This document shows positions 61,654 through 64,000 of a DNA stretch of 64,000 nt, one piece after another. How positions within the stretch are numbered: position 1 is the stretch's first letter; every line of letters starts with the position of its first letter. The notes under the pieces are model-generated. The model was not told where the DNA came from, did no database searches, and saw only the letters and a list, made by a program, of their open reading frames with translations. The position numbers and the translations under genes are program-made. Origin of the DNA: Meira nashicola (Eukaryota > Basidiomycota > Exobasidiomycetes > Exobasidiales > Brachybasidiaceae); the NCBI GenBank assembly GCA_001600355.1, contig BCJU01000003.1, positions 1,430,519 through 1,494,518 of the forward strand, written 5' to 3'.

Positions 61654-62290
61654 ATAGGCGTAAATGCTATGTAANNNNNNNNNNNNNNNNNNNNNNNNNN
61701 NNNNNNNNNNNNNNNNNNNNNNNNNNNNNNNNNNNNNNNNNNNNNNNNNNNNNNNNNNNNNNNNNNNNNNNNNNNNNNNNNNNNNNNNNNNNNNNNNNNN
61801 NNNNNNNNNNNNNNNNNNNNNNNNNNNNNNNNNNNNNNNNNNNNNNNNNNNNNNNNNNNNNNNNNNNNNNNNNNNNNNNNNNNNNNNNNNNNNNNNNNNN
61901 NNNNNNNNNNNNNNNNNNAATAATATCTTTCAAATGGTTATAAAAGGCGTAAATACTATATAAAAAAAAAGTGAAATACTGTATAATAATATCTTTCAAA
62001 TGGTTATAAAAGGCGTAAATGCTATGTAAAAAAAGTAAAATGCTGTACAATAATATCTTTNAAATGGTTATAAAAGGCGTAAATACTATGTAAAAAAAAG
62101 TAAAATGCTGTACAATAATATTTTTCAAATATGTATATTTATATGCTAAAATAATAGAAAGGCTAAAATACTGTATAATATAAATTTTTAGATTGTCGTA
62201 TAAAAAAGCGTAAATACTATATTATATAAGCTTTAAATAAGTAATTATATATAAATACTAAAACAATAAAAAGTCGTAAATAGTATATTA
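61654..62290 (+). repeat. Tandem array of ~65-bp repeats, interrupted by an assembly gap
   Basis: Three near-identical units are visible at 61919-61984 (66 bp), 61985-62048 (64 bp) and 62049-62113 (65 bp), then degenerate copies to about 62290. Each begins aataatatcttt and carries GGCGTAAAT(A/G)CTAT followed by an A run. The same GCGTAAATGCTATGTAA core precedes the gap at 61657-61674, so the gap is inside the array and its true copy number is unknown. Units are contiguous with no spacers, so this is a satellite and not a CRISPR-like array. Confidence 0.88.
61675..61918. other. Assembly gap (244 N)
   Basis: A run of undetermined bases lies inside the tandem array; a single N also occurs at 62061. 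Frames crossing this gap are artefacts. Confidence 0.99.
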
Positions 62291-62629: not shown

Positions 62630-64000
62630 ATGTCAGTATTATCAGATACATATTTACAATATATCCCAGAGTATTCCTCACAGCTTCCCTCTGTACAAGG
62701 GACTGCTTATAGTCGCCGTAACCTAAACGACGGAAGATGGATAGCAGCAGAGCTTCCTTATCAATCATGGACTACTGTTCAGGAAATTGATTTACAAAGC
62801 CATAGAAACTTTATTTTATCGCAAAAAATGCAAGAATATATTTCAAAAGAATCACAAAAAATAGAAAAAGATAAGCAAAAATTTATCGTATCATCGACTT
62901 TCAACTTAGTTAGAAGGAAACCGGAATACACTACTCGTACTATCCCTTTAGACTTCACTAAAGAGGATTATATGAAATTACGTTTAGCTGAAAATGCATA
63001 TCGTTTTATTTATAATCAAACGATCGCAGCAATCCAACAAGCTATACAAGATGGTGTTAGAGTCGAGCATGGCAAATTAGAAAAAAATATTACAACATCA
63101 GCTAATATTGCTCCAGAGAATAAATGGTTGATTGATGATTTACCATCAGTGTTACGACAAAAAGGTGAGTAATTTATAATCATTATACTAAGTATATGAT
63201 AGGATAAAATTTAACAATCATTTTATCAATATTGATATCACTTATAGCCGTCAAAGAAGCATACGATGCATATCTTTCGAATAGACGTAAGCAAATAGGC
63301 AACCCGGACCATCAATTCAAGCTTTTTTTTAAGTCTTTTGATAAATTTTACGGACTGATAAGCTTTACGTCTCAAAGTTGGAGACAAGGAGGACTTTGCC
63401 GTACTATTTTTCTACCTGGCCCTATCAAAAGTACTAAAGGCGAATATATCGAAAGCATTGATATCGATACGTCCTTAATTCGGGAAGGTAAAAGATGGAA
63501 ATTGATTTATAGAAAAGACTTGAATAAACGTCAAGATAGCTTGACCAAGTATATTGGCTATAAAGAATTCTTTTTTATAGACATTCAACGTAATAAAGAT
63601 ACACCTTTAGGTTATTCTTTAATAGAGCTAATATGGATTTCAAAAATATGGAAGCTTGAAGAAAGATCAGATGATGATCGTATAATGGTTCATTTACCGC
63701 CTATCAAGAGCATTATTCATGGTGATGCAAAAGATACTGCTTTTATTCGTTTTACTGCTCTTTCTGCTAAACGTATTACCTTTTCAAAGTTTGAGCAAGT
63801 AGTGATACGACAAAGGGTCCAAATTTCTATAAGTCAATCGGAAACAATTTCTATTCTCTTAGTTTATTTATATTCTCAAGATAATATACAACACGCTCTT
63901 CTTATCAAAGGAAAAAAAGGTGTTTGGACTGAACGATGTGATCGTATTTTAGATGGAAGAGGTAAAGCTATACCTCTGACACCTAAAAGACGATCAACAT
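62630..64000 (+). CDS. Fanzor-like (eukaryotic TnpB homologue) nuclease, 5' part, runs off the window
   Basis: Exon 1 (62630-63164) joins exon 2 (63248 to beyond 64000) through an 83-nt GT-AG intron; 429 residues are visible and the frame is still open. Residues 1-90 are a hydrophilic, Lys-rich leader. From ~103 the Fanzor/TnpB N-terminal pattern appears: 'TRTIPLDFTKEDYMKLRLAE', then the helix 'NAYRFIYNQTIAAIQQAI' (124-131 = YRFIYNQT, the 'aRfvYNqal' landmark), then 'WLIDDLPSVLRQKAVKEA' across the splice site, then 'YDAYLSNRRKQIGN', 'FKLFFKSFDKF', 'ISFTSQSWRQGGL' and 'IFLPGPIKS', the order in which Fanzor proteins run through REC and wedge segments. The RuvC catalytic triad would lie downstream, so activity cannot be judged. 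Known Fanzors are RNA-guided DNA nucleases linked to mobile elements. Confidence 0.75.

Follow-up and report, generated by a model that had tools for sequence, protein, structure and literature searches.

A 64,000-nucleotide stretch of the genome of the basidiomycete Meira nashicola (the window; GenBank assembly GCA_001600355.1, contig BCJU01000003.1, positions 1,430,519 to 1,494,518) was found to end within a Fanzor gene (Fanzors are relatives of the CRISPR Cas12 nucleases that occur in eukaryotes). As the window was placed in the 17.88-Mb, 20-contig genome (C3:1430519-1494518), the gene could be traced past the window edge. Its first 429 codons lie within the window, and exon 2 remained open past the edge (L002:2000 in the extended locus, which takes in the window from 62001 on) for another 1670 bases, giving a full product of 985 amino acids (aa). 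The original prediction, made from the letters of the window, had placed a Fanzor gene at the ATG at 62630 and had held that no stop would follow soon after 64,000; both claims stood, and the intron and the two window exons that it had drawn were also real. The exon 1 frame closes at 63172, at a stop just inside the intron, and homology remains in register on both sides of the intron (LPSVLRQK/AVKEAYDAY). The peptides that had been quoted in support belong to one reading of the protein (YRFIYNQT at residue 124, LPSVLRQK at 171, FKLFFKSFDKF at 202, SQSW at 220 and IFLPGPIKS at 232). The exon 2 frame is not a chance one, since it sits in an open frame of 820 codons (in DNA of 34% GC) and the N- and C-terminal TnpB/Fanzor homologies share that one reading frame. 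From its sequence, the gene is judged to be intact.

Table 1. Features of the Fanzor gene and of the repeat on its left, in window coordinates
Feature	Position	Strand	Remarks
Fanzor exon 1	62630..63164	+	residues 1-178 plus base 1 of codon 179; ATG-initiated open frame
Spliceosomal-type intron	63165..63247	+	83 nt, GTGAGT...TATAG
Fanzor exon 2, start	63248..64000	+	runs on to a TGA ending at L002:3670 (= C3:1496188)
TnpB/Fanzor-like WED-REC lobe	62669..63534	+	residues 14-274, intron within; hidden Markov model of cyanobacterial relatives
Inserted P-type ATPase N-domain (putative), start	63556..64000	+	from residue 282; match to host P2C-type ATPase
AT-rich repeat	61203..~62300	.	left edge ACTATCTTACATAAG; carries a 64-nt tandem array; unlikely to belong to the Fanzor

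The lobes, RuvC residues and zinc ribbon of the TnpB/Fanzor family were found in the full-length product. In Pfam, it matched Cas12f1-like_TNB above the cut-off (E value 2.1e-10) and OrfB_IS605 below it (E 5.4e-6), and in NCBIfam it matched guided_TnpB below the cut-off (E 3.4e-20). Such matches had been anticipated for the in-window half; by itself, that half matched no Fanzor profile, so that the Fanzor call was provable only with the sequence beyond 64,000. There the anticipated D...E...D motifs and zinc ribbon were present: RuvC-I is IDPG with D755, ADRD holds D962, and E925 is followed after six residues by the zinc finger CSSC...CPNPLC (C932, C935, C950 and C955). Passages of PMC3627910 give D-X(125,275)-[TS][TS]-X2-C4 zinc finger-X(5,50)-RD as the Fanzor motif, and the protein contains it as D755, 172 residues, TS, the cysteines, 5 residues and RD962. 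According to passages of PMC10711439, DPG together with a relocated glutamate marks Fanzors and a small, mostly cyanobacterial TnpB clade; both occur here, as the DPG at 755 and the “alternative” glutamate (Ealt) E925 before the zinc finger. The strict search pattern in the same passages was unmatched, with a spacing of 167 instead of 120-160 and a second cysteine pair of C-x4-C instead of C-x2-C. They also describe a TDG motif in the WED domain as a Fanzor1 feature; TDG was absent from all 985 residues. The RuvC/TNB fold was recovered, and by sequence the protein was nearest to Fanzor2 (mimivirus L79, PDB 9b0l). Judged by these features, the protein is a fungal Fanzor of the Fanzor2-like type. 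A first structure model (window protein with three distant relatives) had a mean pLDDT (predicted local distance difference test) of 40 and was discarded, and sub-threshold matches to SurA_N, Rap1_C, HTH_OrfB_IS605 (E 0.14, N-lobe) and ClpP were not used.

Alignments A1-A3 misplaced the N-lobe because of an insert, and profiles of the two halves were used instead. The N-lobe profile, built from the N-terminal halves of 56 of the 74 frames (the ones above 450 aa; cyanobacterial, plus one from a viral contig where long enough), matched residues 14-274 (E 1.5e-13 in a set of 3 sequences), and the last strand of the match, RWKLIYRKDL (261-270), directly precedes RuvC-I in relatives. The C-terminal profile matched residues 751-858 and 888-980, and residues 336-749 matched neither profile. 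Because the matches stop at 274 and resume at 751, and because the corresponding pieces of a Tilletia protein are nearly contiguous, the protein holds an insertion of about 470 residues at a single joint, between the end of the WED lobe and RuvC-I; a further 29 inserted residues lie at 859-887. The original prediction had seen no TnpB landmark after about residue 280 and had suggested a possible insertion there, and both points agreed with this result.

The relatives underlying these profiles came from bacterial and archaeal genomes, in which 166 of 262 pattern stretches were confirmed and 80 kept, all cyanobacterial by title. DPG was present in 70 and the relocated glutamate in 70 of 74 frames (taken from 81 loci), with both in 66, a frequency that arose partly by construction, as the search patterns contained both motifs. 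These cyanobacterial pro-Fanzors (the IS607-type TnpB clade) share both lobes, DPG, the alternative glutamate and the zinc ribbon with the Meira protein, whereas their stop-to-stop frames reach at most 643 aa and hold no insert. In the viral-contig record IMGVR_UViG_3300035160_000028 (L022), inspection by eye showed a resolvase-like TnpA frame (1525-2103) followed by a DPG TnpB whose zinc-finger cysteines are replaced (KTHPQTG...). In three protein searches that scored 7992, 572 and 7991 candidates, P0003, P0004 and P0005 were the sole proteins to pass apart from P0002, the protein of the window itself; as the first and third searches scored only candidates sharing most words, little weight can be put on the lack of closer relatives. 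The closest sequence relative found was the hypothetical protein A4X09_0g4124 of Tilletia walkeri (P0003), which has the same RuvC/TNB core and REC-WED stretch. It grouped with the Meira Fanzor at a support of 97 in a tree without Fanzor1 sequences, in which the Meira Fanzor sat on a long branch. The Tilletia protein differs in having 619 aa, a proline-rich N-terminus and no ATPase match; its WED stretch runs to about 396 and RuvC-I starts at 411, placing the pieces within 15 residues of each other. Mimivirus L79, with a chain of 520 aa, also lacks the insert, and the Meira gene differs from Fanzor2 in its intron. The Fanzor1 proteins SpuFz1, GtFz1 and PpFz1 are likewise eukaryotic and share the RuvC/TNB fold. 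Fanzor1 proteins mostly have 600-700 residues, with a cyclophilin-binding insertion domain of about 100 residues in the RuvC of PpFz1 as a notable exception (passages of PMC11423790), and some reach about 800 (passages of PMC10711439).

When residues 273-750 were compared with the host genome, the only place matched besides the gene itself was C2:1132182-1132754 (E 7.9e-11), apart from a chance-level row at C1:5513769 (E 0.43). The C2 frame is an intact P-type ATPase of the P2C (Na,K/H,K-ATPase-like) type with DKTGT. By BLASTP, insert residues 282-453 aligned with residues 501-684 of this host ATPase (P0006), its N-domain, at E 4e-15 and 29% identity over 192 columns. Shuffling the insert 1000 times gave at most 28.5 bits, compared with 65.1 for the real insert, and other segments were negative too. 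Among PDB entries (E<=10, residues 273-516), 20 of the 21 distinct sequences were Na,K- or H,K-ATPase alpha chains in the same register (best E 0.033), including 1q3i and 1mo7, whose length of 213-214 residues marks them as isolated N-domains. The stretch retains GDA.DTA (GDAKDTA at 63721-63741, +) and the Lys-Gly of KGAP (in KGKKG at 63907-63921, +). After residue 453, a weaker continuation (NLVIIGI versus NLTVVGL) suggests that the N-domain may extend to about 510. The insert lacks the DKTGT phosphorylation motif, and no other ATPase part was matched. Two other host ATPases gave short or weak matches (E 0.001 and 0.004); a profile built on six host ATPases, the best one among them, matched at E 2e-8 (set of 3 sequences), and a 14-ATPase profile at 0.008. 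Broader profiles failed or were marginal, so the case for homology depends on the P2C subfamily, to which the ATPase likeness is specific. By these alignments, the first part of the insert (282 to about 453, perhaps 510) is homologous to a P2C N-domain.

The inserted domain has lost several residues that are conserved in ATPases. Seventeen columns were invariant across four host ATPases (501-684); in the insert, 8 of these 17 were kept and 9 changed. K399, the lysine of KGAP, was retained; FNSxNK had lost its Phe and Lys, and GxR both its Gly and its Arg, with I373, T378 and S444 at the Phe, Lys and Arg positions. In Na,K-ATPase, ATP is contacted by the Phe and the second Lys in FNSxNK and by the Arg in the later GxR, and the KGAP lysine is nucleotide-binding too; given the changes at conserved residues, the insert probably no longer binds ATP. 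The 470 insert codons contain no stop, whereas a 182-codon ATPase piece acquired stops in 1000 of 1000 unconstrained simulations, and the GC content of the insert was 0.13-0.15 at third positions compared with 0.38-0.47 at the others. The lack of stops and the codon-position composition indicate that the insert is still coded. Its remainder is strongly acidic (38 acidic and 7 basic residues over 546-745) and had no significant relative in the genome or in PDB.

We conclude, with a probability of about 0.82, that the locus holds an intact fungal Fanzor2-like gene, found in a single copy and enlarged by a P2C ATPase N-domain and an acidic stretch between WED and RuvC-I. Fanzors cut DNA beside a short motif (TAM) under the guidance of an omegaRNA (passages of PMC10432273 and PMC11423790), and by analogy we infer RNA-guided nuclease activity and an omegaRNA for the Meira protein. 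The omegaRNA would come from the locus, probably from around the 3' end of the gene, and be bound by the WED/REC lobe; the guide would pair with DNA beside the TAM, and RuvC would cut the guide-paired DNA. The insert, lying at the joint of the two lobes, would most likely fold as a remodelled N-domain without ATP binding and protrude as an accessory lobe with a role that may be protein-binding or conformational; perhaps it binds a protein, the closest precedent being the cyclophilin-binding insertion in the RuvC of PpFz1, which is unrelated.

Several results weigh against this conclusion. By fold, Fanzor2 and TnpB (8h1j) tied, both ahead of Fanzor1, which speaks against a Fanzor2-like type. 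For the insert, a profile made with 27 P2 ATPases taken from viral-contig records ranked the Fanzor no higher than sixth of 481 (480 decoys); with four host ATPases added, it came first at E 0.056 when the best was left out and at 0.006 when it was included. The Pfam Cation_ATPase N-domain model found 14 places in the genome, the Fanzor not among them. Block-mean pLDDT over the insert was 25-64 (low to moderate confidence), and the fold searches listed no ATPase for the insert, which their matches do not cover, so that it was barely tested there. Misses of the bacterial-type P2 profile and of Pfam, and the lack of a confident fold, would be expected of an ordinary Fanzor with a lineage-specific insertion from elsewhere that resembles an ATPase by chance; this is very unlikely, given a match to the host ATPase far beyond the shuffles, collinearity over about 190 columns with 8 of 17 invariant columns retained, and the shared register of the Na,K- and H,K-ATPases. 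A GTAAGT donor at 64084 within the insert raises the further rival that the insert is wholly or partly an intron in open frame, leaving a smaller or normal-sized Fanzor as the mature protein. With small in-frame deletions there, the ATPase alignment scores 177-186 instead of 165, but deletions of 25 residues elsewhere nearby also reach up to 176-177, the two candidates starting at 64084 have no branch-site match, a size of 1.4 kb is unlike the gene's own intron, and protein homology and codon structure run through the insert in frame with both neighbors. We regard an intron as improbable, though a small in-frame one could start at this donor. That the assembly wrongly joined a Fanzor gene to an ATPase gene is extremely unlikely: N stretches occur about 0.6-0.7 kb upstream of the start, but none within the gene, the frame is continuous at both joints, and the insert is not a misplaced copy of the host ATPase because it is only 29% identical to it. 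Residues 325-985 also occur in the protein database from a contig of another length (3753755 versus 3165745), maybe from the same reads.

The simulations presumed divergence after capture from a host-like donor, and a divergent donor would weaken their result. The Fanzor was also a lone copy without a transposase, and may be a dying element. It was found once in the genome, save for a sub-threshold zinc-ribbon match at C1:2758373-2758480 (-; L006), considered as a second remnant and rejected as probably chance: it scored 19.6 bits for TNB, below the cut-off, and lies between genes with no further Fanzor sequence within 3.1 kb. Canonical Fanzor2 genes reside in IS607-type elements, whereas no resolvase gene was found in the Meira genome (Pfam Resolvase, 0 matches at E<=1; controls positive in 10 of 14); Fanzor2 genes outside IS607 (Fanzor2*) are known from passages of PMC10711439. 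At the locus, no Rfam match of interest, no convincing 3' structure and no recognizable omegaRNA were found. The 3' flank (L002:3672-3796, starting one base past the stop) shares 125 bp at 87% identity and with sharp edges with the intergenic C3:2904282-2904406 (-); the copies differ at 4/8/4 sites over the codon positions and have no common predicted fold, and no matching left end was found. The shared sequence is possibly an element end, an RNA or a gene fragment. A hairpin across the stop codon, CTTGGTAC-A-GTACCAAG, was weak against shuffles (z -1.3 to -1.65 in the segments holding it) and was set aside. One copy, no transposase, no clear ends and no clear RNA, with the long branch, the C-x4-C pair and 9 of 17 changed ATPase columns, would fit a relic: a Fanzor element disrupted by an ATPase piece, with a protein that no longer functions as an RNA-guided nuclease. 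Such a relic is rather unlikely, as 985 codons have stayed free of stops in AT-rich DNA, the catalytic and zinc residues are all retained and codon-position composition is strong across the insert.

The AT-rich island to the left, which the original prediction had linked to a mobile element, was real; as the Fanzor's own transposon it was rejected, because the three other copies found, with identities of 99%, 98% and 81%, lie among ordinary genes, and the 9.9 kb retrieved there held no Fanzor; the copies are at C1:2377485, C3:1882993 and C3:1082165. The island is 98-99% identical to two copies over about 470 bases and carries a tandem array that varies (64-94 nt); positions 61675-61918 and 62061 read N. 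This repeat may be young and mobile. No inverted pairs of at least 20 nt (11-base seed) were reported in L002. A laxer scan of 7 kb that included both flanks gave 58 pairs, of which the 25 shown were mostly AT-rich and 71-88% paired; one pair, AAGGCGTAAATACTATA / TACACTATTTACGCCTT (17 nt, 88%), flanks the gene, but the AT-rich repeat accounts for the left arm of this pair and a repeat between neighboring secreted-protein genes for the right arm. The inverted pairs are not convincing as element ends. To the right of the Fanzor (L002:4428-9482 and L003:555-7474, C3 ~1496946-1509474), about eleven reverse-strand frames for small proteins start with hydrophobic, by eye signal-peptide-like stretches; some are tandem paralogues, with matched stretches 73-89% alike, and a repeat with ACTATTTACGCCTTGATCGGGGC or near variants lies between some of them. 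This looks like a secreted-protein gene cluster.

Beyond the intact, enlarged Fanzor2-like gene itself, a broader scenario is offered tentatively and at less than even confidence: a host ion-pump domain was captured and rebuilt as a lobe, and the gene, single and transposase-free, was domesticated, with the lobe regulating or recruiting the nuclease. No open-licence PMC paper (main texts, without supplements) was found for a Fanzor with P-type ATPase, Basidiomycota, Tilletia or Ustilaginomyco-, and the combination of a Fanzor with a piece of an ion-pump ATPase was not met in the literature searched. A recognizable domain of an unrelated housekeeping enzyme lies inside a nuclease whose active-site residues are intact. 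Should the protein prove functional, some 470 extra residues are tolerated at the WED-RuvC joint, which would be useful for engineering Fanzor fusions, and the finding raises the testable question of whether a captured host domain may make a transposon nuclease a regulated cellular protein.
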